Part shown: piece by piece, positions 3,081 to 27,245 of the stretch | Position numbering within the stretch: the stretch's first letter is position 1 | Layout: each line of letters opens with the position of its first letter | Source: Candidatus Obscuribacterales bacterium | GTDB lineage: Bacteria; Cyanobacteriota; Vampirovibrionia; Obscuribacterales; Obscuribacteraceae | Reading direction: 5' to 3' | Length of the DNA: 49,551 nucleotides | Assembly (NCBI GenBank): GCA_021732025.1 | Contig: JAKFVU010000041.1 | Location: 1 to 49,551, forward strand | Translations under genes and position numbers: made by a program | The notes under the pieces: model-generated | Seen by the model: the letters and a program-made list of their open reading frames with translations, nothing else | Databases searched by the model: none | Told to the model about the DNA's origin: nothing

Positions 3081-3176
3081 GGGGATGGAGCATCGCTGGT
3101 GTGGTGTGCGGTCTTCAAAATCGTTGCGGGGTAGATTTACGCTGCCCTGGGTGGGTTCGATTCCCACGCATCCCCG
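3081..3176 (+). tRNA. selC: tRNA-Sec (anticodon TCA)
   Basis: A 96-nt tRNA with selenocysteine hallmarks. The acceptor stem GGGGATG/CATCCCC (3081-3087 with 3169-3175) is extended to an eighth position that is a G-G mismatch. The T arm is GTGGG-TTCGATT-CCCAC (3151-3167). The anticodon loop CTTCAAA (3113-3119) has anticodon TCA at 3115-3117. A long variable arm has a 6-bp GGGTAG/CTGCCC stem (3129-3134, 3142-3147). The discriminator base is G (3176). CCA is not encoded. The D stem CATC/GGTG is short but pairs. Length, TCA anticodon, long variable arm and G73 together separate it from a Ser or suppressor tRNA. No selA, selB or selD is in the window, so selenocysteine use must be confirmed elsewhere in the genome. 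Confidence 0.9.
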
Positions 3177-8695: not shown

Positions 8696-8768
8696 CTCGA
8701 ACGCTACATTTCACTTGACAACAGCCGCCTAACCCTTAAGCTTGCATCAGGTTGGGGTTAGTAGAAAA

Positions 8769-11222
8769 ATGAAACTGCAAGCTTTCCGCCGTCGGTCGGC
8801 TCAAATCAAGCTGTCTTCCGTAGCGCCTGCCCTGGTAGAGTTCGAGGACCAGCAGAGCTTGAAAACAAACGTGCCTGCTGAAGCTCTACAGGAAAGAACT
8901 GAACCCCTAGTTGAAACAGCCTCTCTTGATACTAGCTTTTTTAAATCGGGCGTCAGCGATGCCCCCTTTTCTGATCAAGCAGAAACGCGCCTGCAAGCCC
9001 GCTTTGAAAGACTCGTCAATGAGATAAGCCAAGACAAATATGAACTGTGGCGTTGGGTTCTTGCCACCAGCCTAGTCACCATAGCTCTGCACATACCGTC
9101 ATGGATAGTCACTTTCTCTGTGATCGCTGCGCTCTCGGCAGCCTGTTGGTTTGCTTACAAACAGCCAGAGGCCTTTGTCAGACAGGGCAGTCGCTGGTGC
9201 CGCATCATCTTTAATTGGGAGACCCTCATTAAAGCGGCCATTGCTTATTTTGCCTCGATCTTATTGGGCTACACCGTCAGCACCCTACCTCATGCACTAG
9301 ACTGGCTGCCGCGCGACAGGCCTCTAATCGATACACATTTTCTGTGGCAAAAGTTAGCAATACTAACGGCCGGGCTTGGCACCACATTTCTCGCCTATAA
9401 GCAATTTGCCCATCGTCTCAGCACCTCCGCACGCCTAAACTTGACTTACAGTCTAGTACTTCTCATGGGCGGCCTAATCTGCATCTTTGTGGCAGGAATT
9501 CCTTTCACTACTTTTGGTATCGCAGACTTGGTCATCAATTGGCTCTGCGCCAGTGTGCGCGATGCTAATATCGACCTGAGCTCTGACTACAGCCAAGCTT
9601 GGGCCCCCTTCAAAATATTTATTGCTTTGCTTCTCTACTATGCATTTTCAAAGCCGATTACATTCATTGCTATGAACTTAGCTATAGAGCTGGAAAACAG
9701 AAACTACAAGAAATACGCCAAGGGAGCTCTACAATCAGCCTCCCAAAGCGTCAACTGCACCAATCTAGACCTAACAATAAAGGCAGCTCACCCGACCATC
9801 AAGCACAGCTTCCAGACTGCCCTCTGGCTTGCAATCTGTTACGGCTTTCTCTATACACTCTTGGCTCACTGCCCTGGTGCTCTCGGCCAGACTCTAACTC
9901 AATTTCTCCAAGAGAGTTTGCAATCGGTCAACGAAAAATCTAGTGTGTTCAGTACTATCGACGTTTCTAGCACTCCTAAATTGCGAGAGTTTTTGGCCAG
10001 CTTTGTCGCTCTGATTGGTGCTGCACCACTAGCAATAATGACGACAGCTTTCCTCCCTCCGACTAAGTCAGGACAGCTCCAGGTAAGGCCTTGGGGCCTT
10101 TTTCGCAAGCGCTTTCAAGCTAGTCTACCCTTTACCAAACCAATTCATCTCTGGCAAGATCTCAAATCGGTATCTATCAAAGGGAAAGTGGATAGCTCTG
10201 CTACCGGCACCGTTGTGCTCAGGTTCGGCGATGGAGAAATATATAAATTTGCGCCCCAGCAAGTCGACCCGAGTCAAATGCAGATTCTGCTTGAAACCAT
10301 AGACGAATGCGCGCCTAACTGCCAAATTGAGCCAGCCGTGTTGCTCTACCGTTCAAACTTGCAGGCACGACTGCAAGCAAGTGCCAAAGAAGAAGAAAAA
10401 CCGACCAGGCTTAGCCAGCGAAAATTCAACGCCACGGTATTCACGCCCTACAATCAAGGAGAGATTGTAGATAACACTCTGAGAATCGTGCGCATGCTTA
10501 GCAGCAAGCCGCTCTCGGCAGTCTATCTAGTGCGAACTGCCGCAGGCCAACTCGCCGTTCTCAAACAATTTTCTCTGGCCGTGCAAAGCGAGAGCTTAGA
10601 GAAGTTAGTGAGCGACTTTGAGCGCGAATGCAAACTACTTGAATCTCTAGATGTAAGCGGCATAAGCAAGGTCTATAAGACATTCAGGGTGGATAATTCG
10701 CAATTTCTGCTGCTTGAATATAAAGTCGGCAAAGACCTCTTTCATCTAGTCAACGAGGGCGAAACTCTGAGCGAAGATTCGCTGTACCAAATTGCCAAAG
10801 ATATTGCCAAACTGATGCTCACGTTGCACAACAATAAACCGGCAATCATCCATCGCGATCTCACCCCTGACAATATAGTTCTTACACCAGAAGGGACAAT
10901 TGCCTTAATAGATTTCGGCTCGGCTCATCAGTTTGCCGAAGGCATCACCGGCACACTGGTAGGCAAACAGGCTTACATCGCCCCCGAGCAGCTGCGCGGC
11001 AAAGCAACCCTACAGAGCGACATCTATAGCTTCGGGTGTTGTCTAAACTATCTCTTCACGGGCAAAGAACCTAAGGCACTGAGCCAGTCAGATCCTGGCA
11101 AAGGCGCCTTCGCCATATCACATAAATTGAACGACCTGATCAAGCGCTGCACCGAATATGATGCTGAGCAGAGGCCAGCATCTTTCGAAGAAATTCTAAC
11201 AAGCCTGGAGGATGCCAACTAA
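8769..11222 (+). CDS. Polytopic membrane Ser/Thr protein kinase
   Basis: About 817 residues from ATG 8769 (a TTG at 8742 is alternative). The N-terminal half holds several hydrophobic segments (WVLATSLVTIALHIPSWIV; IAYFASILLGYTVSTL; LVLLMGGLICIFVAGI; LALFLASFVALIGAAPL-like region near 415-430). A soluble beta-rich linker (WQDLKSVSIKGKV to YKFAPQQVD) precedes a C-terminal kinase domain (about 570-817). The kinase keeps the ATP lysine in LAVLKQF (about K599), catalytic loop HRDLTPDN (from about 695), DFG in LIDFGSAHQF (from about 715) and APEQLRG. The glycine loop is degenerate (RMLSSKPLSAVYLV). The next gene starts within its stop codon (TAATG) and has the same architecture, so the pair is a duplicated, coupled unit. 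Confidence 0.85.
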   Translation: MKLQAFRRRSAQIKLSSVAPALVEFEDQQSLKTNVPAEALQERTEPLVETASLDTSFFKSGVSDAPFSDQAETRLQARFERLVNEISQDKYELWRWVLATSLVTIALHIPSWIVTFSVIAALSAACWFAYKQPEAFVRQGSRWCRIIFNWETLIKAAIAYFASILLGYTVSTLPHALDWLPRDRPLIDTHFLWQKLAILTAGLGTTFLAYKQFAHRLSTSARLNLTYSLVLLMGGLICIFVAGIPFTTFGIADLVINWLCASVRDANIDLSSDYSQAWAPFKIFIALLLYYAFSKPITFIAMNLAIELENRNYKKYAKGALQSASQSVNCTNLDLTIKAAHPTIKHSFQTALWLAICYGFLYTLLAHCPGALGQTLTQFLQESLQSVNEKSSVFSTIDVSSTPKLREFLASFVALIGAAPLAIMTTAFLPPTKSGQLQVRPWGLFRKRFQASLPFTKPIHLWQDLKSVSIKGKVDSSATGTVVLRFGDGEIYKFAPQQVDPSQMQILLETIDECAPNCQIEPAVLLYRSNLQARLQASAKEEEKPTRLSQRKFNATVFTPYNQGEIVDNTLRIVRMLSSKPLSAVYLVRTAAGQLAVLKQFSLAVQSESLEKLVSDFERECKLLESLDVSGISKVYKTFRVDNSQFLLLEYKVGKDLFHLVNEGETLSEDSLYQIAKDIAKLMLTLHNNKPAIIHRDLTPDNIVLTPEGTIALIDFGSAHQFAEGITGTLVGKQAYIAPEQLRGKATLQSDIYSFGCCLNYLFTGKEPKALSQSDPGKGAFAISHKLNDLIKRCTEYDAEQRPASFEEILTSLEDAN

Positions 11223-13570
11223 TGCAACCAGAGCGCGGCGATTACTTTTTACCTAGCAAACTGAAAGATGCAATCAGCATGGTTGGCAATGAAAATTTCC
11301 GTTCACCCCCTTTACCATTGCAAGAAGGAGAACGAGTACAAGAAGAGACAAAAAAAATAAAGGCTTCACTCAAGCATTACAAGCTAGCCGATCGCATCGG
11401 CTCCTCCATCTCTCTATATTGCCAAAGCAAGCTCTACCTCTTAAAGCTAAAGGTAGTAGCAGACTGTTTCAGTACATATAGAAAAGTACTAAAGCCCGGT
11501 CAAACCAATCAGTACGACTACGAGTGGAGTGGGCAGCAGGCCTTTGACAAAGAAAGGCTCAATTTTCAAGACTATCTAATCGATGTTCAGGCTGAAGGTT
11601 ATGGCACCGACGTGCTTTATCGTGCATTACCGGCAGTGCTTCTCTTGTTACTCTTAGCTGTCTCAGCAAAGCTGGCAGTTGCTGCTGTACTTTTCACTCT
11701 GCTTATTTGGTCGTCTTATAAAGTCTGTGACTGCCTTTTGCCTGCGGCTCTCACAAAGAAGTTAGAGCCTACAGTCTTCGGCAAAATATGCCGCAACCCA
11801 GCAGCTCAGCAATGGGCCATAGTTTTAAAGAACATTGCTCCCTTCCTCACAATGGGCCTATATGCCATTCCCCCGATTGCTCTAGTTATGATTGTTGGCC
11901 ATTGGCTAGCCAGGACAACTGGCTTTGAGAAATACCTTGAGACTCGACAACAGCAAGAAAAGAGCAAGAACGCTCTAGTACTTAGACAGAACCTAGATGT
12001 TCAAGATAAGCACGAAGAAGGCTTCATACACTCACGCGCCTTCGCTGTTACTCTCACGACCATATTCGCCAGTGGCTTGCCCGCTTTTATCTCTTATTAT
12101 TTGTATTGCATCGGCGGTGTAGATGCCATCTTTGGCAATCCTTCGCGAGATCCAGAATTCCTCAAAATAATGTTCATTAATCTCTATCTTGGCTCAGTGG
12201 CAAGCTGTCTGTCAGTACTATTTTTCAGAGCCTGGTTTACCTTCCCACTTAATTTTCTCAGTGCTGAATACGATATCGATCTGACTGAAGTAAAAATAGA
12301 AAAGCAGAACGCCAAAGGTTGGTTTTCAGTATGCATGTTTTGGGGCTGGCAAAGCAACCTATTCTCCTCCGAATTATTCTGGAAAGATGTCCGTGACGTG
12401 GATTTTAAGGTCGGCAATAGCTTCCGACTCTATCCGCTACCGCCAATGTTTTTTAGAGAGCAAAGCGCGCTCTATAAAATGCTAAACAGATTGGCTGCGC
12501 TGACTGATGCGATTTCAATGAACAAGGCAAATGGCAATCGCCTCGAGATAAGCGGTAAGCACGGCGACATTATTGAAATCAAATTAGATGAGCTTGATAG
12601 CGAACAGAAGAAAAACGTATTTTTCTACATCCGCAAATACGCACCACAAGCCACCATCTCAGAAAGAGCACAAAAGGCACTGGTTGGCTCGACAGTACTG
12701 CGCGATCCCAAACACACCGAACTTTGGTTTGACCTACTGCTTGATCAGGCCAACAGAGCACATACTGGCTCTAAAAATTCGAATATCAGTCTACGCAACG
12801 GCAAGTACATGTTTTTAAATAAGCTAGCTAGCGGCGGCCAAGCAAGCGTCTACCTGGCAAACGACCACGAGGGTAAATCATTCATTCTCAAAGAGTTTGT
12901 GCTGCCAGAAGGCCGGGTAGAAAACCAGCTTGAATCAATGGTCGAATTTGAAAACGAGAGTCTCATTTTAAGCCGACTCGATCACCCTCAGATTGTCCGT
13001 CTGCACGATCAGTTTATTGAAAACGGCCGAGCTTACCTAGTGATTGAATATGTGGAAGGTAAAACTCTGCGTCAGTTGGTGAGTGATGAGGGTGCTCTAA
13101 AAGAAGAGCAGGTACGTTCGCTAGCCGAGCAGATGGTGGCAATTTTAAGTTATTTAGAAGAGCAAAATCCTCAAGTGGTGCACCGCGATTTCACGCCCGA
13201 TAATCTTATCCTTGAGCCGAATGGTAAATTGAAACTAATTGACTTCAGCATTTCACACTTATACAAAGCAGGTGAGAGTGCCGAGTGCGCCGGCAAACAC
13301 TCTTACACGCCGCCGGAGCAGTATCGCGGCGAAGCCACACCGCAGAGCGATATCTATGCCTTTGGTGCAACCCTAGCTTTTCTTATCACCGGCAAAGACC
13401 CTCAACCAATTGCCAGCAGCCACCCCAAAGAAAGCCACCCTGAAATAAGCCAGCAGCTAGATACATTAATTGCCCGCGCAACAGCAATACCCCTAGGCGA
13501 GCGTTACGAAAACTGCCAATGGATGAAATTGGATTTGGACCTTGCCCCCATTGCGGTGAGCGAAGATTAG
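11222..13570 (+). CDS. Polytopic membrane protein kinase, DFG changed to DFS
   Basis: 782 residues. ATG 11222 overlaps the preceding TAA (TAATG). It is a paralogue of the previous protein: several TM helices (LLLLLLAVSAKLAVAAVL; FLTMGLYAIPPIALVMIVG; AVTLTTIFASGLPAFISYYLY), a beta-rich soluble linker (ELFWKDVRDVDFKV; EISGKHGDIIEIKLDEL), then a kinase domain from about residue 530. Kinase motifs: good glycine loop LASGGQASVYLAN, ATP lysine in FILKEF, HRDFTPDN (from about 654), but the magnesium motif reads DFS (GAC TTC AGC, 674-676) where DFG is expected. The metal-binding Asp is kept, so activity may be retained but tuned. The pair could act as a hetero-oligomer; that is inference. Confidence 0.83.
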   Translation: MQPERGDYFLPSKLKDAISMVGNENFRSPPLPLQEGERVQEETKKIKASLKHYKLADRIGSSISLYCQSKLYLLKLKVVADCFSTYRKVLKPGQTNQYDYEWSGQQAFDKERLNFQDYLIDVQAEGYGTDVLYRALPAVLLLLLLAVSAKLAVAAVLFTLLIWSSYKVCDCLLPAALTKKLEPTVFGKICRNPAAQQWAIVLKNIAPFLTMGLYAIPPIALVMIVGHWLARTTGFEKYLETRQQQEKSKNALVLRQNLDVQDKHEEGFIHSRAFAVTLTTIFASGLPAFISYYLYCIGGVDAIFGNPSRDPEFLKIMFINLYLGSVASCLSVLFFRAWFTFPLNFLSAEYDIDLTEVKIEKQNAKGWFSVCMFWGWQSNLFSSELFWKDVRDVDFKVGNSFRLYPLPPMFFREQSALYKMLNRLAALTDAISMNKANGNRLEISGKHGDIIEIKLDELDSEQKKNVFFYIRKYAPQATISERAQKALVGSTVLRDPKHTELWFDLLLDQANRAHTGSKNSNISLRNGKYMFLNKLASGGQASVYLANDHEGKSFILKEFVLPEGRVENQLESMVEFENESLILSRLDHPQIVRLHDQFIENGRAYLVIEYVEGKTLRQLVSDEGALKEEQVRSLAEQMVAILSYLEEQNPQVVHRDFTPDNLILEPNGKLKLIDFSISHLYKAGESAECAGKHSYTPPEQYRGEATPQSDIYAFGATLAFLITGKDPQPIASSHPKESHPEISQQLDTLIARATAIPLGERYENCQWMKLDLDLAPIAVSED

Positions 13571-13670: not shown

Positions 13671-14900
13671 TTATTGCGACGCTATAACCTTCGCCAATAT
13701 TCCAATTGCCTCATTGATCTCATCATCGCTTACTGTCAGAGGCGGCAAAAGTCGTATGACATTTTCGCCGGCACCAACAAGCAATAGCCCTTCTGCCGCG
13801 CACTTCTGAATAATTGGTTTCACCGGGATATCAAACTCAATACCAAGCATCAGGCCCAGTCCACGAATTGCTTTGATTGATGGGCACTTAGACTTGAGAT
13901 CGACCAGCTCTGCTAATAGCAGCTCACTTTTAGTCTTTACAGACCCTAAAAACTGCTGATCGCGAATGATACTGACGCAGGCCAATGCCGCAGTTGCAGC
14001 CAGCGGATTACCGCCAAAAGTCGAGCCATGGTCACCCGGATTAAATGCGCAGGCAATACTTTCTTTCGCCAGAATAGCCCCGATAGGGAAGCCGCCACCT
14101 AGACCTTTGGCTAACGCTACTACATCTGGGGCAAGGGCAAAATTGTCGCTGGCAAAGAAGCTGCCACTGCGACCGACACCACACTGAATTTCATCAAATA
14201 TCAAAACAATCTTGTGCTCGTCGCAGAGCGCTCTCACTTTCTTGAGAAAACCGATATCGGCCAAATGCACGCCGCCTTCACCTTGGACTGGCTCGACGAT
14301 TATGGCTGCGACCTCAGCTAAGTTATGCGCTAGTATCGAATCAATATTATTGAACTCCACCACACTAACGTCTGGCACCAGTGGGTGGTAGCCTTCTTGG
14401 TACTTAGTTTGCGCCGTGGCTGAAAGGGCACCGTAGGTGCGTCCATGAAAAGAATTGCTCATGGTAAGAATTTTCGTGCAGTTCTCGCCTTTGTTCTTCT
14501 TTGCGTATTTGCGACTGAGCTTGAGAGCACCCTCTATAGCCTCAGCACCGCTGTTGCAAAAGAAGGCGCGGTCAAAAGCACTATTGGCCACAAGCTTCTC
14601 GGCAAGCTCAATAGCCGGCTGGTTGTAATAGAGATTAGAGCAATGACTCAGTTTACTTAGTTGCTGAGTCAACGCTTCTACATAGGCAGGATGACAGTGA
14701 CCAAGGGCATTAACAGCAATGCCTGAGGCAAAATCAAGATAGTCTTTACCGTCAACATCCCTAACATAGCTGCCCTTTCCCTCGGATAGAACCATGGGCT
14801 GGGTGGCATAAGTTTGCATCAGCACTTTCTTGCCGCGCTCCACCCAATCGCTTTGGGTTGAGGTTGACTGGGAAGATTCGGCGCATACACTAATGGTCAT
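13671..14900 (-). CDS. argD: Acetylornithine aminotransferase
   Basis: PLP enzyme converting N-acetylglutamate semialdehyde to N-acetylornithine; 409 residues, normal for the family. The class III aminotransferase signature is present: the Asp that holds the pyridine ring in LIFDEIQCGVGRSG, Schiff-base Lys in VALAKGLGGGFPIGAIL, plus NSFHGRTYGALSAT and HGSTFGGNPLA. The start ATG (14900) overlaps the argB stop by 11 nt, so it is the last gene of the argJBD unit. The strand ends convergent with the kinase gene. Expression should follow the attenuator ahead of argJ. Confidence 0.93.
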   Translation of the reverse strand: MTISVCAESSQSTSTQSDWVERGKKVLMQTYATQPMVLSEGKGSYVRDVDGKDYLDFASGIAVNALGHCHPAYVEALTQQLSKLSHCSNLYYNQPAIELAEKLVANSAFDRAFFCNSGAEAIEGALKLSRKYAKKNKGENCTKILTMSNSFHGRTYGALSATAQTKYQEGYHPLVPDVSVVEFNNIDSILAHNLAEVAAIIVEPVQGEGGVHLADIGFLKKVRALCDEHKIVLIFDEIQCGVGRSGSFFASDNFALAPDVVALAKGLGGGFPIGAILAKESIACAFNPGDHGSTFGGNPLAATAALACVSIIRDQQFLGSVKTKSELLLAELVDLKSKCPSIKAIRGLGLMLGIEFDIPVKPIIQKCAAEGLLLVGAGENVIRLLPPLTVSDDEINEAIGILAKVIASQ

Positions 14901-15786
14901 ATTTATCTCTATCTCCGGTAATAAGTGTGCCTGTCTCTTGCGGCGCTAAAAAGCCACTGACCAGAGCGTTTGGTGCAAAGCTATTAATTATGGCGATGCG
15001 TCTGATGCCATTCTTGATGCCCCTAACGCAACTTTTGATCTTGGGCAGCATGCCACCGCTCACGGTACCATCGTCAATAAGCTCTTGGGCACTGCTTGGC
15101 GTAACGTGACCAATCCTAGACTGTGGCACTTTGAAATCTTTGAGCACACCGGGTACATCAGTCATGAAGATCAGACCATCGGCTTCCAGGCTAGTTGCTA
15201 GAGCCAGTGCGGCATGATCGGCATTGATGTTATAAAACTGACCGCTACTGTCAAGGCCAAGGGGCGAAACAATTGGCGTCCAGCCCGCCCACATCCAGCT
15301 GTCAATGCCTTTAGAGTGAACATCTACTATTTCACCTACCCAGCCAAGATCCGCCGACATTTGTTCGGTTTGAAAAGGTATTGCCGACTTAGAGCAAAAG
15401 CTCAAGGCGCTGATACCTCTTTGCCGAAATTTCTCAGTCAGTTTGTTATTAATATCACTAAATACTTTAACTGCAATAGATAGGGTCTCCTCATCAGTTA
15501 CCCGCAGTCCGTCTATCTTTTTAGTCTCTTTACCGATAGATGCCAAAGCATCGTTGACTGCATTACCACCACCATGGACAACGATGACATGTATGCCGGC
15601 TTTGATCAGGACAACGGCTTCATCGATAAGTGCATCCAGCACCACCTCATTGCCTATAGCATTGCCTCCGAATTTCAAGACGACAACTTCGTAGGCGTTT
15701 TGTTTTAGTGTCTCTTTAGCCAGTGAGATATCAAAGGGCATCGCTGCCACAGATTTTAAATTCATTGAAGCTACCATTGTTGCCAC
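14890..15786 (-). CDS. argB: Acetylglutamate kinase
   Basis: Phosphorylates N-acetylglutamate, usually the feedback-controlled step of the pathway; 298 residues. Amino-acid kinase motifs: VVLKFGGNAIGN near the N-terminus, VHGGGNAVNDAL for substrate, and the C-terminal DGTVSGGMLPKIKSC typical of NAGK. The start is GTG 15786 directly after the argJ stop (TAG at 15789-15787), with AGGA 5 nt upstream. An ATG at 15777 with AGGTGG before it is equally possible. Cotranscribed with argJ and argD. Confidence 0.94.
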   Translation of the reverse strand: MATMVASMNLKSVAAMPFDISLAKETLKQNAYEVVVLKFGGNAIGNEVVLDALIDEAVVLIKAGIHVIVVHGGGNAVNDALASIGKETKKIDGLRVTDEETLSIAVKVFSDINNKLTEKFRQRGISALSFCSKSAIPFQTEQMSADLGWVGEIVDVHSKGIDSWMWAGWTPIVSPLGLDSSGQFYNINADHAALALATSLEADGLIFMTDVPGVLKDFKVPQSRIGHVTPSSAQELIDDGTVSGGMLPKIKSCVRGIKNGIRRIAIINSFAPNALVSGFLAPQETGTLITGDRDKYDH

Positions 15787-17148
15787 CTATGTCCTGTAAG
15801 AGCCGTTGATACGCACATATTCATAACTGAGGTCACAGCCCCAGGCGGTTGCTTCACTGAAGCCCTCTTTCATGTCAATGTGGATAGTGATGTTTTTCTC
15901 TGCCAATACAGCTTTACCGAGAATCTCGTTAACGACGGCAGGTTCGCCTTCGTGCATAAGCTCTAGCCGTCCTGCGGCACTTTCTATGGCAATTGAGACA
16001 GTTTCTGGTTTGAACTTAACGCCACTGTAGCCCATAGCACAGATGATCCTGCCCCAATTGGCGTCTTCACCAAAGAAGGCTGTTTTTACCAAGCTGGAAG
16101 AAACAATGGAGCGACCCAACTTACGGGCCTCTTCAATGCTGTCTGCGTGCTTGACTTGAACCTCGAGAAACTTGGTGGCGCCTTCGCCATCTTGCACTAT
16201 TGCTTTGGCAAGGTCGGTGTTGATAGTCTTGAGCGCCTGACAGAAGGTGAAATAGTCTTTGCCGACGCTGTCAATTAGTGTGTTTCCGGCCTTACCGTTG
16301 GCTAGGATAGCAACCATGTCATTGGTGCTGGTATCACCATCAACGCTAATCATGTTGTAGGTTTCAGCAGTACTTTCTTTCAGAGCTTTGTTTAAAAGTG
16401 CTGGAGAAATATTTAGATCAGTAGTGAGAAAACTAAGCATGGTAGCCATATTTGGGTGAATCATGCCGCTACCCTTGGCCATGGCACCGATAGTGACTTT
16501 CTTACCATCGACTTCAAATTCTAGCGAAGTTTGCTTGACGTAGGTGTCGGTGGTCATAATCGCCTGCGCAGCGCTCAAACCGGCTGCAGGCGATGGGTCC
16601 AACTGCTCACAGGTACTCACTATGCCTTGCTTGATCAGTTGAATTGGCAGTTGCACGCCAATCACTCCGGTAGAAGCGATGATGATTTCCTCTTTGCTTA
16701 CGCCCATGCTTTCAGCATAGGTAGCGGCCATAACTTCAGCATTGACCATGCCTAGCTCGCCAGTGCAGGCATTGGCATTACCACTGTTAACCACAATGCC
16801 ACGCACAGTCTTACCGCCCGCAACCACCTTTTCATTCCAAAGAATCGGTGCAGCTCTCATGACATTGGTAGTAAAAGCCGCTGCCAGATGGGCCGGAACT
16901 TCACTCCAAATCAAAGAGAGATCTTTGCGTTTGCGCTTGACGCCGATGTGAGCGCCAGCTGCCATAAAGCCCTGGGGGCTAGTGACACCGCCAGTGAAGC
17001 CGTCTACATCTACGGCTGGGCTGACTTTTGTCTTCTGGGCAGTAGTAACAACGGCCGCTGCTAATGCTTCACCAGCTATAGCTTCAGCAGCTATGGCTGC
17101 TGAATTGGCTGAATTGCGGGTTGATTGGAGTCTAGCTATTGAGTTCAA
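15787..17148 (-). CDS. argJ: Bifunctional ornithine acetyltransferase / N-acetylglutamate synthase
   Basis: Recycles the acetyl group from N-acetylornithine to glutamate. The self-cleavage site is visible as MATML (cleavage before Thr, the nucleophile of the beta chain), with GMIHPNMATMLSF and SVDGDTSTNDM around the active site and the ArgJ C-terminus WGCDLSYEYVRINGSY. The frame is open from an ATG at 17217, but that ATG lies inside the intrinsic terminator (17188-17224), so it cannot be the start of the productive message. I choose TTG 17148, preceded by AGGGAAG with good spacing, giving about 453 residues. The first 45 residues are Ala-rich and poorly conserved in appearance. An argJ of this type makes the pathway cyclic and argA/argE dispensable. 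Confidence 0.93.
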   Translation of the reverse strand: MNSIARLQSTRNSANSAAIAAEAIAGEALAAAVVTTAQKTKVSPAVDVDGFTGGVTSPQGFMAAGAHIGVKRKRKDLSLIWSEVPAHLAAAFTTNVMRAAPILWNEKVVAGGKTVRGIVVNSGNANACTGELGMVNAEVMAATYAESMGVSKEEIIIASTGVIGVQLPIQLIKQGIVSTCEQLDPSPAAGLSAAQAIMTTDTYVKQTSLEFEVDGKKVTIGAMAKGSGMIHPNMATMLSFLTTDLNISPALLNKALKESTAETYNMISVDGDTSTNDMVAILANGKAGNTLIDSVGKDYFTFCQALKTINTDLAKAIVQDGEGATKFLEVQVKHADSIEEARKLGRSIVSSSLVKTAFFGEDANWGRIICAMGYSGVKFKPETVSIAIESAAGRLELMHEGEPAVVNEILGKAVLAEKNITIHIDMKEGFSEATAWGCDLSYEYVRINGSYRT

Positions 17149-17187: not shown

Positions 17188-17224
17188 AAAAAAAATCCCT
17201 GAATGCTTGCCTTGCACTCAGGGA
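17188..17224 (-). terminator. Intrinsic terminator (attenuator) before argJ
   Basis: On the minus strand TCCCTGAGTGC and GCATTCAGGGA (17224-17214 with 17206-17196) form an 11-bp stem with one G-U and a 7-nt loop, followed at once by eight Ts (17195-17188). It lies between the Arg-rich leader peptide and the argJ start, where only conditional termination makes sense. Confidence 0.9.
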
Positions 17225-17273
17225 TAAAAAATTTAGTTGTTGATCAAATCAACACAACCAAACTAAACCCGAG
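17217..17273 (-). promoter_or_regulatory. Antiterminator fold of the argJ leader
   Basis: CTCGGG (17273-17268), inside the leader peptide just after its last Arg codon, pairs with CCTGAG of the terminator 5' arm (17222-17217; one G-U). The next block TTTAGTT (17267-17261) pairs perfectly with AACTAAA (17238-17232), and GTTGAT/ATCAAC (17253-17248 with 17244-17239) closes an inner hairpin. This fold of about 19 bp with bulges excludes the terminator. A ribosome that finishes the leader peptide (stop at 17251-17249) would sit on it and let the terminator form. Confidence 0.75.
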
Positions 17274-17350
17274 CGCGCTAAACGGCGTCGCGAGCTTCTT
17301 CGGCTGTCTGTGTGGTTATTGGTGTGGTGGGTTGCGCCAGAAGCGAACAT
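17249..17350 (-). CDS. Arginine-rich leader peptide of argJ (33 aa)
   Basis: A short frame ATG 17350 to TGA 17249. Residues 16-26 read SRRSSRRRLAR, so six of ten residues from 17 to 26 are Arg, encoded by CGA, AGA, CGA, CGC, CGT and CGC. A GAGG Shine-Dalgarno lies 9 nt before the ATG (17363-17360). The peptide sits between its own promoter and the terminator before argJ. Such control peptides work by sensing charged tRNA: when Arg-tRNA is short the ribosome stalls in the Arg cluster and leaves the antiterminator segment free. The whole design is repeated before argC. The peptide itself is probably non-functional. Confidence 0.82.
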   Translation of the reverse strand: MFASGATHHTNNHTDSRRSSRRRLARSGLVWLC

Positions 17351-17377: not shown

Positions 17378-17406
17378 AGGTTACGATCGTTTCGCGTCGA
17401 TGTCAA
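17378..17406 (-). promoter_or_regulatory. argJ leader promoter
   Basis: Perfect TTGACA (17406-17401), a 17-nt spacer and TAACCT (17383-17378, three of six matches). It starts only 18 nt after the argC stop, so argJBD can be transcribed separately from argC. The argC promoter has the same -35 and the same spacer length. Confidence 0.65.
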
Positions 17407-17423: not shown

Positions 17424-18533
17424 TCACGAAGGAAAAATTGGCGATTGATTTAGCCCAGTAGATTCGGGCCAGTCAAAAAGTATATTCATGTTCTGTATAG
17501 CCTGTCCCGCTGCGCCTTTGACTAAATTGTCTAAAGCACCAACGGCAATCACGCGGTTAGTTCTTTGATCAATTGTCATACCAATATCGCAGAAATTTGC
17601 CCCTTTAACAAAACGTGTTTCAGGCATCTTATACTCCTCGGCATCGGGAGAGAAGAGCCTGATGAATAGCTCATTTTCGTAGAACGATTCGTATAAACTA
17701 TATAACTCTTTATTAGATATATTACTTATAAGCGAGGCGTAAGCAGTAACCAGAATACCTCTATTCATTGGCACCAGATGCGGTGTAAATGAGGTGCAAA
17801 AAGACGTACTTGTGAAAGCCGCAAGCTGTTCTTCAATCTCTGGGGTGTGCCTGTGGCAGCCAACATTGTAGGCTTTTATCGACTCATTGCATTCGTTAAA
17901 ATGCGTACCTAGAGCTGCCGCTCTACCGGCACCAGAAACTCCTGATTTGGCGTCTATGATTATAGACTTAGCGTCGATTATGCCGGCCTGCAAAAGTGGT
18001 GCCAATGTCAGTATCGAGCAAGTGGCATAACATCCAGGATTGGCAACCAGAGAGGCCTGACTAATAGCTTTGCGATTGAGTTCAGGTAGGCCGTAGACAG
18101 CTTGAGCGAGAAGCTCTGGTTGTGGATGTTTGAATTTGTACCAAGTTTCGTAGTCAGCCGCGCTCTTCAAACGAAAATCAGCGCCGAGATCAATCACCTT
18201 ACACTTGGCCAAAATACTCTTGCTCACTTTACCAGCGGCGTTGCCGTGCGGTAGTGCTAGAAACAGCAAATCGACTTTCTCTGCAAGCTCTTCGAGATCT
18301 TCGTTCTTGCAAACAAGGTCGGTATGCTTTTGCAAGCCGGGATAGACTGAAGCGAGTTTCTTTCCGTCACTGCTCTGCGACACGGCAGTGTGCAGCTGCG
18401 CTCTATCATGCTGTAGTAATAGACGTACAAGTTCTTGACCGGTGTAGCCCGTGGCACCGACAACAGCCACTTTTTTAGTGTCTTTGCTAGAAAAGCCTTC
18501 AACCGTCTTCATTTGTTCTAATTGCACTGCCAT
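17424..18533 (-). CDS. argC: N-acetyl-gamma-glutamyl-phosphate reductase
   Basis: NADPH-dependent third step of arginine synthesis; 369 residues including a short N-terminal extension (start ATG 18533). Nucleotide-binding VVGATGYTGQELVRLL, the catalytic Cys in NPGCYATCSILTLAPL, and KSGVSGAGR and the CHRHTPEIE segment match the family. A Shine-Dalgarno AGGA begins immediately after the U-tract of the upstream terminator, so read-through directly exposes the start. The stop at 17424 is followed by the second arg promoter and leader. Order on the strand is argC, then argJ-argB-argD. Confidence 0.94.
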   Translation of the reverse strand: MAVQLEQMKTVEGFSSKDTKKVAVVGATGYTGQELVRLLLQHDRAQLHTAVSQSSDGKKLASVYPGLQKHTDLVCKNEDLEELAEKVDLLFLALPHGNAAGKVSKSILAKCKVIDLGADFRLKSAADYETWYKFKHPQPELLAQAVYGLPELNRKAISQASLVANPGCYATCSILTLAPLLQAGIIDAKSIIIDAKSGVSGAGRAAALGTHFNECNESIKAYNVGCHRHTPEIEEQLAAFTSTSFCTSFTPHLVPMNRGILVTAYASLISNISNKELYSLYESFYENELFIRLFSPDAEEYKMPETRFVKGANFCDIGMTIDQRTNRVIAVGALDNLVKGAAGQAIQNMNILFDWPESTGLNQSPIFPS

Positions 18534-18545
18534 GATACTTTTCCT

Positions 18546-18578
18546 AAAAAAAATCCCCGGGTCATATAAACCCGGGGA
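18546..18578 (-). terminator. Intrinsic terminator (attenuator) before argC
   Basis: TCCCCGGGT and ACCCGGGGA (18578-18570 with 18562-18554) form a perfect 9-bp stem with a 7-nt loop, followed by eight Ts (18553-18546). It ends 12 nt before the argC ATG. Loop size and U-tract length match the terminator before argJ, but the sequences differ. Confidence 0.92.
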
Positions 18579-18627
18579 GACAAATTCGATAATGGTGCTA
18601 AATATCAGCTACGCTATCGACCCCGAG
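18571..18627 (-). promoter_or_regulatory. Antiterminator fold of the argC leader
   Basis: CTCGGGG (18627-18621) pairs with CCCCGGG of the terminator 5' arm (18577-18571; one U-G). The adjoining TCGATA (18620-18615) pairs perfectly with TATCGA (18591-18586). The 13 bp are interrupted only by an 8-nt bulge. The 5' half lies in codons 20-24 of the leader peptide, 14 nt or more past the Arg run, so it is free when a ribosome stalls on Arg codons and covered when it reaches the stop. Confidence 0.78.
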
Positions 18628-18686
18628 TTCACTAGGAATTCGCGGCGTCGGCGGTTTGTAGTTGTAGTGATATTGAACGAAAACAT
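18609..18686 (-). CDS. Arginine leader peptide of argC (25 aa)
   Basis: A short frame ATG 18686 to TAG 18609. Residues 12-15 are four consecutive Arg (CGC CGA CGC CGC), preceded by four Thr and Asn. An AAGGG lies 13 nt before the ATG, a rather long spacing. It lies between a TTGACA promoter and the terminator that abuts argC. The four-Arg run, its distance from the antiterminator segment and the stop codon placed so that a terminating ribosome covers that segment are what transcription attenuation by arginyl-tRNA supply requires. The role is inferred from this geometry and from the parallel leader before argJ. Confidence 0.84.
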   Translation of the reverse strand: MFSFNITTTTNRRRREFLVNSGSIA

Positions 18687-18716
18687 TTTGCTGGTTGCAC
18701 CCTTAATCTTATATCG

Positions 18717-18745
18717 ACATTACAGGGCAACCCAAACAATGTCAA
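18717..18745 (-). promoter_or_regulatory. argC leader promoter
   Basis: Perfect TTGACA (18745-18740), a 17-nt spacer and TAATGT (18722-18717). Transcription would start about 24 nt before the leader peptide ATG. No obvious ArgR/AhrC-type palindrome was seen around it. Confidence 0.65.
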
Positions 18746-25034: not shown

Positions 25035-27245
25035 ATGAATCCACACGACCAATCCCAGAGCTATTCTGGCGTTAATACAGACCCAGGTCCAAACCTGAGT
25101 GTAGAATGCCAGGACAGCACAAGATTAACCAACAGCCCCATATTAGGGCTGCCAGATTCAAGTATTACAATGGCCCCGGCCCAGCTAAATGACGGCAAAC
25201 TTCATGCCCTCGATTTGGTGGGCGAAAACTATGAAATTATTTCGCTCATCGGTGTGGGCGGAATGGGTTATGTCTACCGGGTTCGTCATCGCATTTTGCA
25301 AAAGCTCTATGCCATGAAAACTCTCAGCTCTCAGCATGTCAGCGAAATTGCCTGGCGTCGGTTGCAGGTAGAAGCTCAAGCTATCGCCCGCATGAACCAC
25401 CCCAATATTGTTGGTATACACAACCTTGGGTTGCACGAAGATCGGCTGCCATACTATGTTATGGATCTCCTTGATGGAGAAGCTTTGGCCGATCGTTTAA
25501 AGCGCGGCAGCCTCACCCTAAGCCAAGCTCTGCCGATTTTTATTGAAGTTTGCAGAGGTCTCGGCTACGCCCACAAGAAAGGCATTATTCACCGCGATAT
25601 AAAACCTGGCAATATCATCTTACTGAAAGAGCCTGATAGCTCCGGCGCCACAGTAAAAATAGTCGACTTCGGCATAGCTAAGCTATCTGGTGCCAGCGAT
25701 CCGAGCAACCAGAATCTTACTTGCGTAGGCGAAGTTTTCGGCAGCCCATATTACATGAGCCCAGAGCAGTGCGAAGGCAAGCGCATCGACGCCCGCTCTG
25801 ATATCTACTCAGTCGGTTGTACTCTTTTTGAAGCTTTAGTGGGCCATCCTCCATTTAGAGGAAACAACCCCGTGCAGACTATGGTCATGCACCAAAGTCA
25901 CGAGCCACCATCAATGAGTGCCGCTGCCGGCAAGAAGTTTCCTGACGAGATTGAAGAACTTGTAGCTCAGCTCTTGGCCAAGGCGCCAATGGATCGCTAT
26001 CAGAGTTTAGACAAAGTTGCTGAAGACTTGCAATCGATTGCCTCAGGAAGAGAGATACAAACAAAAGCACTCTTTGATACTCACACATTTTTCGAAGCAG
26101 AAGACGACGAAGAAAAGACTCCAAACAAAAACCTTGCCCTGGGCGTGACGCTATCTCTAGCCGCCACTATAGCCGTGCTCATAGGAGCAGCAGTATGGTT
26201 CATTCAAGCGAAACAAAGCGAGCGACCAAGCAGCAAAAAAGTTGCAGAAGTAAAAGTTGCAGACGCCAAGAAAGTTGGCATCGCCAGTAGTACCAAGCTC
26301 GCCCCAACAGCCATAGGACTACCGCAACCTTTCAGTCATGCCACTGTAGATAAAGACGGCAAAGCAGTCAAACAATTTGACTTCCCCAGCGACAATTATC
26401 TCGGCCGCATAATCATCAACGACAGTACTGAATACTGGGAAGCGAAAGGCACAAAACAGTTTCCAGCATCCGCCAAGCTTGAACTAGTAGCGTCGCCTCA
26501 ACTGATGGCTCAACTCGACAATTTTGATCGCTTCCGCCCTGACGACCTGTACGGCGTGCGTTTGTTCCAGCAAGCCATGCCCACTCCAAAGGCAGGTACT
26601 ACCAATGCCAACACTAGTTCCGGCAACGACTTCCTGCTGCCTGAAAGTTATGACAGTGACATTCCAGCCGCGCTCAAACACTTACAGCACATAACCAGTT
26701 TACGAAAACTTGATTTGATTGACTGTCCCAATGCCAATGATAAGGCAATTGCTTCAATCAATAAGTTACCCAATATTATCGATCTGCGGGCCAGCGACAC
26801 CAGCATCACGGGTGAGGGTCTGAGCAATTTGAGTAGACTAAAAGAATTAGAGAGTTTGACTTACACCAAAGGTACAAAAGTAAGTGCACTGCTCAAGGCA
26901 CTGGCTGGCTCAAAAAAACTAACCAGCCTAGGCATAGACCGACCTAGCAGCAGAGCCTTGACTGAAAGCGACCTCAAAAATATTGCTAGCTGCAAAAACC
27001 TGACGCGCCTCGATCTAGACGACTGCGCTATCGACAATAATGGCCTAGCTATCATCGCTACCCTGCCTCACCTCAAAGAGCTTTATACTGAATACAACAG
27101 GCTCGACGAAAATTGCTTGCTAAGCATGCAAAAAATGAAGAAACTTGAGTTTCTCGACCTCTCCTCTCCGACCTGGACACCGCGCCGCCAAGCCCTGTTG
27201 AAACAGCAATTCCCCAGATTAAGCACAGTGGTGTTTAACGACTAA
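25035..27245 (+). CDS. Ser/Thr kinase-TM-LRR protein, array member 1
   Basis: 736 residues; a TAA in the same frame lies one codon before ATG 25035, which fixes the start. Order: short variable N-terminus; Hanks-type kinase (about 60-335) with GVGGMGYVYRVRH, ATP Lys in YAMKTL, HRDIKPGN (from 186), VDFGIAKLSG (from 211), and SPEQCEGKRIDARSDIYS; acidic juxtamembrane stretch; one TM helix (about 366-388, LAATIAVLIGAAVWF); then outside the membrane a module with FDFPSDNYLGRI and FRPDDLYGVRLF, and six or so leucine-rich repeats (LRKLDLIDC, LTSLGIDRP, LTRLDLDDC). All catalytic residues are kept. First of four tandem paralogues. Confidence 0.92.
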   Translation: MNPHDQSQSYSGVNTDPGPNLSVECQDSTRLTNSPILGLPDSSITMAPAQLNDGKLHALDLVGENYEIISLIGVGGMGYVYRVRHRILQKLYAMKTLSSQHVSEIAWRRLQVEAQAIARMNHPNIVGIHNLGLHEDRLPYYVMDLLDGEALADRLKRGSLTLSQALPIFIEVCRGLGYAHKKGIIHRDIKPGNIILLKEPDSSGATVKIVDFGIAKLSGASDPSNQNLTCVGEVFGSPYYMSPEQCEGKRIDARSDIYSVGCTLFEALVGHPPFRGNNPVQTMVMHQSHEPPSMSAAAGKKFPDEIEELVAQLLAKAPMDRYQSLDKVAEDLQSIASGREIQTKALFDTHTFFEAEDDEEKTPNKNLALGVTLSLAATIAVLIGAAVWFIQAKQSERPSSKKVAEVKVADAKKVGIASSTKLAPTAIGLPQPFSHATVDKDGKAVKQFDFPSDNYLGRIIINDSTEYWEAKGTKQFPASAKLELVASPQLMAQLDNFDRFRPDDLYGVRLFQQAMPTPKAGTTNANTSSGNDFLLPESYDSDIPAALKHLQHITSLRKLDLIDCPNANDKAIASINKLPNIIDLRASDTSITGEGLSNLSRLKELESLTYTKGTKVSALLKALAGSKKLTSLGIDRPSSRALTESDLKNIASCKNLTRLDLDDCAIDNNGLAIIATLPHLKELYTEYNRLDENCLLSMQKMKKLEFLDLSSPTWTPRRQALLKQQFPRLSTVVFND

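Follow-up and report, generated by a model that had tools for sequence, protein, structure and literature searches.

Predicted arginine-codon leader-peptide attenuators ahead of arginine biosynthesis genes in the Obscuribacteraceae

In a stretch of 49,551 nucleotides of DNA from a Candidatus Obscuribacterales bacterium (GenBank assembly GCA_021732025.1, contig JAKFVU010000041.1, positions 1 to 49,551; hereafter the window), a member of a non-photosynthetic, uncultured group, the arginine biosynthesis genes argC and argJ are each preceded by a leader that, judging from its sequence and modelled folding, is very probably a ribosome-mediated transcription attenuator sensing charged tRNA-Arg. The features of an attenuator found here are a leader open reading frame (ORF) with start and stop codons, a cluster of Arg codons, a predicted intrinsic terminator, and an antiterminator that uses the 5' arm of that terminator. 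At the sequence level, support comes from the ORFs and repeats themselves, from how they are spaced, and from finding them again ahead of argC, argJ, argF, argG, and argB in related genomes, while the dependence on ribosome position (antitermination on Arg codons, termination at the stop codon) is a result of folding only. Folding predicts that strand 2 of the leader pairs with the 5' arm of the terminator while Arg codons occupy the A site; once the ribosome has reached the stop codon, strand 2 is predicted to be masked and the terminator to form. Scarce arginine would stall the ribosome on the Arg codons and let RNA polymerase enter the arg genes, and with plentiful arginine transcription would end ahead of the first gene.

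The argC gene and the elements of its leader are as follows.

18717..18745, minus strand: promoter-like site, TTGACA at 18745-18740, 17-nt spacer, TAATGT at 18722-18717 (from sequence)
18609..18686, minus strand: argC leader ORF of 25 codons, MFSFNITTTTNRRRREFLVNSGSIA, with ATG at 18686 and stop TAG at 18611-18609 (from sequence)
18642..18653, minus strand: regulatory codons CGC CGA CGC CGC (four Arg), codons 12-15 of the leader ORF
18618..18650, minus strand: protector (1:2) hairpin, 18650-18637 with 18630-18618 (RNAalifold and pair counts)
18566..18632, minus strand: predicted antiterminator (2:3), core 18632-18621 with 18577-18566, 12 bp
18546..18578, minus strand: predicted intrinsic terminator (3:4), 18578-18569 with 18563-18554, T8 at 18553-18546
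17424..18533, minus strand: argC, N-acetyl-gamma-glutamyl-phosphate reductase (TIGR01850, 447.1 bits, cut-off 233.6)

The initial annotation of this region had described an arginine attenuator ahead of argC, composed of a TTGACA/TAATGT promoter, an ORF of 25 codons that holds a run of four Arg codons, a 13-bp antiterminator, and a 9-bp terminator whose U8 ends 12 nt upstream of argC, and each element was found where it had been placed or no more than two bases away. The argC start codon from which the 12 nt are counted is the ATG at 18533. The Arg run extends over 18653-18642 rather than 18651-18642, and the terminator is counted here as 10 bp, being nine standard pairs and one U-G. The pairs of the 13-bp antiterminator exist as two helices (18627-18621 with 18577-18571 and 18620-18615 with 18591-18586); four pairs of the second were followed across 13 leaders, where three are kept in 12 or 13 and one in 3, and none of the four is changed on both sides. 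The reading as an arginine attenuator is thus supported, but it proved too narrow, having missed both the second attenuator, ahead of argJ in the same window, and the regulon.

A Shine-Dalgarno-like AAGGGUG lies 5' of the argC leader ORF, whose stop codon is 75 nt upstream of argC; relatives of this leader keep the Arg run and a stop codon ahead of the terminator. The 5' arm of the protector hairpin contains Arg codons 2-4. The TTGACA box is found upstream of 12 of 13 aligned argC leaders (the same stretch consists of N in leader L021) and was not seen upstream of the argC leader of genus g8 (L029). The folding z-score of the 155-nt leader piece is -2.7. When the window was scanned for short ORFs with at least four Arg codons in seven and a terminator 75-130 nt downstream, criteria chosen after the leaders had been seen, exactly two matches were obtained, upstream of argC and of argJ; the same scan on 60 dinucleotide shuffles of the window gave a mean of 0.07 and a maximum of 1.

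Model R2 found, at 17189-17305 (E 1.1e-7), the second complete predicted Arg attenuator, which occupies the interval between argC and argJ (17406-17188, minus strand) and has a promoter-like site of its own. The gene order on the minus strand, assigned with NCBIfam, is argC followed by argJ, argB, and argD.

17378..17406, minus strand: promoter-like site of the argJ unit, TTGACA at 17406-17401, 17-nt spacer, TAACCT at 17383-17378 (from sequence)
17249..17350, minus strand: argJ leader ORF of 33 codons, MFASGATHHTNNHTDSRRSSRRRLARSGLVWLC, with six Arg codons (model R2, then sequence)
17273..17302, minus strand: Arg codons CGA AGA .. CGA CGC CGT .. CGC of the argJ leader (RRSSRRRLAR)
17214..17276, minus strand: argJ leader antiterminator, 17276-17268 with 17222-17214 (predicted, ribosome walk)
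17188..17225, minus strand: predicted argJ leader terminator, 17225-17214 with 17206-17195, 12 bp, T8 at 17195-17188
15787..17148, minus strand: argJ (TIGR00120, 494.6 bits, scored on a longer frame)
14890..15786, minus strand: argB, acetylglutamate kinase (TIGR00761)
13671..14900, minus strand: argD, acetylornithine transaminase (TIGR00707)

The argJ start given by the mechanical ORF list, GTG 17217, falls within the argJ leader terminator. When argJ was aligned with 13 relatives, three started at TTG 17148 and the other ten at residue 39-53 of that frame; because three relatives align from TTG 17148 onward, this codon, downstream of the leader, is the likely argJ start rather than GTG 17217. 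A third Arg attenuator of the same genome lies elsewhere, upstream of argFG. Each of argC, argJBD, and argFG would have its own attenuator in this genome, and a transcript begun at the argC promoter would meet two gates in series on its way to argJBD. Also near the arg operon are three large ORFs (826, 782, and 736 aa; 8742-13570 and 25035-27245, plus strand), the translations of which we take to resemble serine/threonine protein kinases.

Recurrence in relatives had been proposed in the initial annotation as a check on its reading, and Arg codons, terminator, and competing antiterminator do recur in 14 argC leaders, as they likewise do in leaders of argJ, argF, argG, and argB. In total, we found 52 Arg leaders in 28 genomes and 11 genera of one family, 14 of them ahead of argC, 19 ahead of argF, 14 ahead of argJ, three ahead of argB, and two ahead of argG. 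The argF count includes two leaders (G001 and G043) assigned by likeness, the contig ending before the gene, and one argF-type leader (L174) with the contig end inside its terminator, which was counted among the 52 and left out of folding; on the argJ side of L042 the available sequence was too short for a reading, and it was left out. The argC leaders with Arg codons came from a search of argC in 53 genomes of the order, and occur in genera g1, g22, g21, and g8. The g8 leader L029 was missed by both models described below and was recognised by reading alone.

Model R1, trained on 13 argC leaders alone and run over the same 53 genomes, returned 18 matches outside its training set at E ≤ 0.0078, all of them Arg-codon leaders (15 argF, two argG, one argB); 17 of these sites sit ahead of argF, argG, or argB, the positions of argF and argG having been set by family searches, and in G001 the gene would lie beyond the contig end. 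At E ≤ 1e-3 there were 15 matches other than argC (13 argF-type and two argG), again all Arg-codon leaders. Three more argF leaders (G030, G039, and G026) and two more argB leaders came from reading the regions before argF and after argC. Two further R1 matches, in G009 (E 0.011) and G016 (E 0.018), the only ones read above E 0.008, proved to hold no Arg leader. Leaders of argJ lie downstream of argC in all 12 argC loci examined, and also occur in G040 and G046; compared with the window's genes, the 13 that follow argJ leaders elsewhere match argJ at 50-89%, and the three that follow the argB leaders of genus g19 match argB at 64-65%. One frame of 576 aa in another genome (G022:C191:2035-3570) combines an argG match with an N-terminal argF match, and is either a fused gene or an assembly artefact.

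Over 382 genomes of the class, model R2 gave 44 matches at E ≤ 1.1e-7, of which 43 are Arg leaders of the window's family and 28 are R2's own training set. Of the 14 argJ leaders, all absent from its training set, it picked up 13 at E ≤ 0.01, seven of them already counted in the 44. Weaker R2 matches in G296, G256, G111, and G177, and a second site in G029, the only ones that were read, hold no Arg leader. Among 386 genomes of the phylum at E ≤ 1e-4, only the three leaders of the window's genome and one partial match were found; as no other known leader-bearing genome was among the matches, the phylum draw would have contained few or no other family members. Both the class and the phylum scans used only models of known leaders. 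The one remaining R2 match of the 44 belongs to a different family of the class (L171, G063:C2:411760-411876), and has a short ORF, MLSRSIIILTVVVLVLIGSTG, followed by a terminator-like hairpin; the next gene does not resemble an arg gene, reading in another frame gives an ORF rich in Ile, Val, and Leu, and this could be a branched-chain amino acid leader.

Arg clusters are present in all 37 leaders analysed, and in 31 of 34 the matched Arg motif begins 94-109 nt ahead of the approximate start of the U-tract. The Arg leaders are probably paralogous copies of one device.

We then considered whether the competing helices are kept among relatives. Alignment A1 comprises 13 argC leaders, the g8 leader being left out, and 93.8% of its cells are paired in the terminator, 87.9% in the antiterminator, and 96.2% in the protector hairpin, in which two pairs are changed on both sides in 6 of the 13 leaders. 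Column 108 of strand 2 covaries with its protector partner, column 98 (CG in 7, UA in 6), and with its antiterminator partner, column 170 (GC in 7, AU in 6), and column 170 pairs with terminator column 176 (CG in 7, UG in 4, UA in 2). This is the pattern that mutually exclusive helices would be expected to produce, and it is mostly one split between two clades. In a shuffle control for the three argC helices, the covariation scores of terminator, antiterminator, and protector were each reached by 0 of 500 shuffles; by the two measures based on numbers of pairs or types, the real alignment is no better than the shuffles, the number of pairs changed on both sides being reached by 231, 357, and 300 of 500 for the three structures. 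As double-sided changes in the argC set mainly separate g1 and g22 from g21, they amount to few independent covariation events. A comparison of two argJ leaders of one genus (L026 and L023) shows a local compensatory change, G to A in strand 3 paired with C to U in strand 4.

The core of the antiterminator varies in sequence with its pairing kept (AACUCGGGG/CCCCGGGUU, GGCCCGG/CCGGGUC, AACCCGGGG/CCCUGGGUU, GAACUCGGG/CCCGAGUUC, and CGCUCGGGGA/UCCCCGAGCG). Its duplex is stronger than in shuffled sequences (p < 0.05) in 29 of 37 leaders and no better than shuffles at this level in the other eight, namely L006, L020, L023, L025, L095, and the three argB leaders, where testing started past the last Arg codon. 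Several leaders are less regular: terminators of the g21 argC leaders (7 of the 13 in the set) have an internal mismatch, the three g19 argB terminators have a poor U-tract, and the weakest case, the g23 argJ leader (G046), has a TTG start and scattered Arg codons (RR.....R..R...R).

The initial annotation had also called for folding of the leader in two states, and the outcome agrees with its reading: folding predicts antitermination for a ribosome on the Arg codons and termination for one at the stop. In the ribosome walk, RNA upstream of and beneath the ribosome was removed and pairing was computed before and after strand 4 had been made; since the core helix was chosen by duplex prediction, the walk tests position more than existence. 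Across 37 leaders with the A site on an Arg codon, the antiterminator core had a probability of at least 0.9 in 34 and of 0.84 in the other three. From five codons beyond the last Arg, it was at most 0.1 in every leader, and once the ribosome stood at the stop codon, a probability of at least 0.8 was reached by the terminator in all 37. The last permissive codon was 1 to 3 codons beyond the last Arg in 32 of the 37, coincided with it in one, and preceded it by 2 or 3 codons in four (three argB and one argG). The 14 argJ leaders behaved similarly, with antiterminator probabilities on Arg codons of at least 0.77 in all 14 and at least 0.9 in 10, and, at the stop codon, an antiterminator of 0 and a terminator of at least 0.93 throughout; their transition falls inside or just beyond the Arg cluster, and the last Arg codons are often past it. 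Because many codons upstream of the cluster are also permissive, specificity for arginine rests on Arg being the clustered and final codon before the switch. A general S3-sequestration measure, blurred by other pairings of the terminator arm, gave at least 0.8 on Arg in 24 of the 37 leaders and at most 0.2 afterwards in 13, with two undefined, and the helix-specific walk was used instead.

In equilibrium folds, the fully made leader behaves differently: even with a stalled ribosome, the terminator still wins in five of the six argC leaders of g1 and g22 (P34 of 0.89-0.97 in the window), so the switch would require co-transcriptional folding and its timing. With no ribosome, the window's argC antiterminator is predicted at about 0.87-0.97, and the antiterminator exceeds 0.5 in 16 of 37 leaders. 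Since the antiterminator forms there without a ribosome, folding does not predict that the protector hairpin would impose termination on untranslated argC RNA of the window.

A CG-rich repeat could be kept only as RNA that binds a protein or small molecule, the Arg codons being a by-product of the CGCCGACGCCGC strand; the 5' arm of the protector hairpin is indeed made by the Arg run, and a CG-rich repeat has one frame that encodes Arg. We regard this as very unlikely, given that the Arg frame has an upstream ATG or GTG in 36 of 37 leaders (the exception, L082, is cut by a contig end) and a stop codon ahead of the terminator in all 37, that Arg is kept despite differences in the DNA (RRTRR in g21 argF, RRSSRRRLAR with AGA in the window's argJ, RHTLRRRVR in g19 argB), and that the permissive stretch of the walk ends close to the Arg codons. 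Another reading takes the leader peptide for an arrest peptide, which would stall the ribosome on free arginine, as in the fungal arginine attenuator peptide, rather than on missing Arg-tRNA; poly-basic nascent chains can slow ribosomes. A stall at the Arg run frees the antiterminator, however, so that high arginine would turn synthesis on, and the residues beyond the run vary widely among the leaders, unlike arrest motifs, which makes an arrest peptide highly improbable.

Within their seven-codon Arg clusters, the 37 leaders together use CGC 92 times, CGA 33, CGT 16, and AGA once, with a few AGA, AGG, and CGG codons outside the clusters and in argJ leaders; the Arg codons of 11 reading frames of the window are CGC 74, AGA 36, CGT 26, CGA 20, AGG 17, and CGG 12. 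As CGN thus makes up 141 of 142 cluster codons versus 132 of 185 in the window's frames, the comparison suggests that the sensor is a tRNA reading CGN, with the qualification that the related sequences are non-independent and the strand must also pair.

Control of argC by a T-box or another known Rfam riboswitch or leader family has precedent in that, according to the accessible part of PMC1262725, some bacteria control arg genes by T-box; that part describes no conserved RNA structure ahead of arginine operons in Actinobacteria, and T-boxes elsewhere. Within the window, only a tRNA-Sec gene matched Rfam above the gathering threshold, and no family matched in the leaders. Permissive filters added seven matches of 15.8-23.2 bits against gathering thresholds of 39-80 bits, six placed at the two terminators and one within argC, with no T-box or amino acid leader among them, leaving this explanation with next to no likelihood. 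The tRNA-Sec gene itself (3081-3175, plus strand; RF01852, 71.3 bits) suggests that the lineage uses selenocysteine.

ArgR/AhrC, which targets arg biosynthesis genes with arginine as the signal, is a DNA-binding protein, unlike the RNA leaders described here, and in 24 of the 28 leader-bearing genomes no match to its N-terminal domain (PF01316) was found. Matches occur in 8 of the 53 genomes of the order, in g7 (three), g15, g19 (three), and g23. Four of these also carry leaders, namely those of g19 (argB leaders) and g23 (an argJ leader), and a strict rule of either ArgR or attenuator was dropped for this reason. In the four ArgR genomes of g7 and g15, no leader was found in the scanned regions upstream of argC, argF, and argG, and no R2 match at E ≤ 0.01. 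In the g7 genome of loci L008 and L030, argR lies ~0.5 kb upstream of argC; an RRRRR frame upstream of argC there has no terminator behind it and was counted as chance. At least two genomes (G008 and G022) have arg genes with neither ArgR nor leader found, several assemblies being incomplete. The ArgR genomes of the order, half of them with leaders, are what could favour an ArgR-type repressor at the promoter, with the terminator as a constitutive attenuator; set against this, PF01316 was not found in the window's genome (G000, assembly 84% complete) or in any g1, g21, or g22 genome, and we consider such a repressor exceedingly improbable.

On balance, we favour the broader view that in Obscuribacteraceae paralogous cis attenuators have replaced ArgR, with argC, argJBD, and argFG each gated by tRNA-Arg charging and two gates in series on argC-argJBD. 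If true, arginine joins the amino acids whose synthesis is under leader-peptide attenuation, through a regulon built of repeated cis attenuators, apparently without a repressor, and one family would offer a natural comparison of ArgR-only, attenuator-only, and mixed control.

The remark in the initial annotation that arginine synthesis has no well-studied leader-peptide attenuator agrees with our searches: none for arginine-synthesis genes was recognised among the matches listed from the open literature, and an older or paywalled prediction is possible. The accessible part of a 2010 study (PMC2965389) gives, for leader-peptide systems outside Proteobacteria and Actinobacteria, only its own find ahead of Firmicutes his-tRNA synthetase genes. 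Three known systems come close, each described here from the accessible part of its source. In the Salmonella speF leader, two consecutive Arg codons of orf34 likewise sense arginine through ribosome pausing, but they control ornithine decarboxylase via Rho, access to the ribosome-binding site, and RNase G, and that study found no Rho-independent terminator in the leader (PMC6386406), whereas the window's leaders have a predicted intrinsic one. In Staphylococcus aureus rbfL, Arg codons of a leader peptide also report arginine supply; here the codons are the rare AGA/AGG, the mode is translational occlusion of the next ribosome-binding site, and low arginine represses a biofilm regulator (PMC13009471). 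Pseudomonas carAB has a leader peptide ahead of a gene that also feeds arginine synthesis, but its attenuation is ascribed to pyrimidines and its arginine control to the transcriptional level (PMC4997734). In design the leaders also resemble the trp, his, leu, thr, phe, and ilv attenuators, which, in the accessible parts of PMC1183508 and PMC1262725, likewise have a run of end-product codons in a short ORF, protector, antiterminator, and terminator helices that share strands, and a U-tract ahead of the first gene. The class of mechanism is already known, while its specificity for arginine, the scale of the regulon, with five different arg genes, and the lineage, Obscuribacterales, appear to be new.
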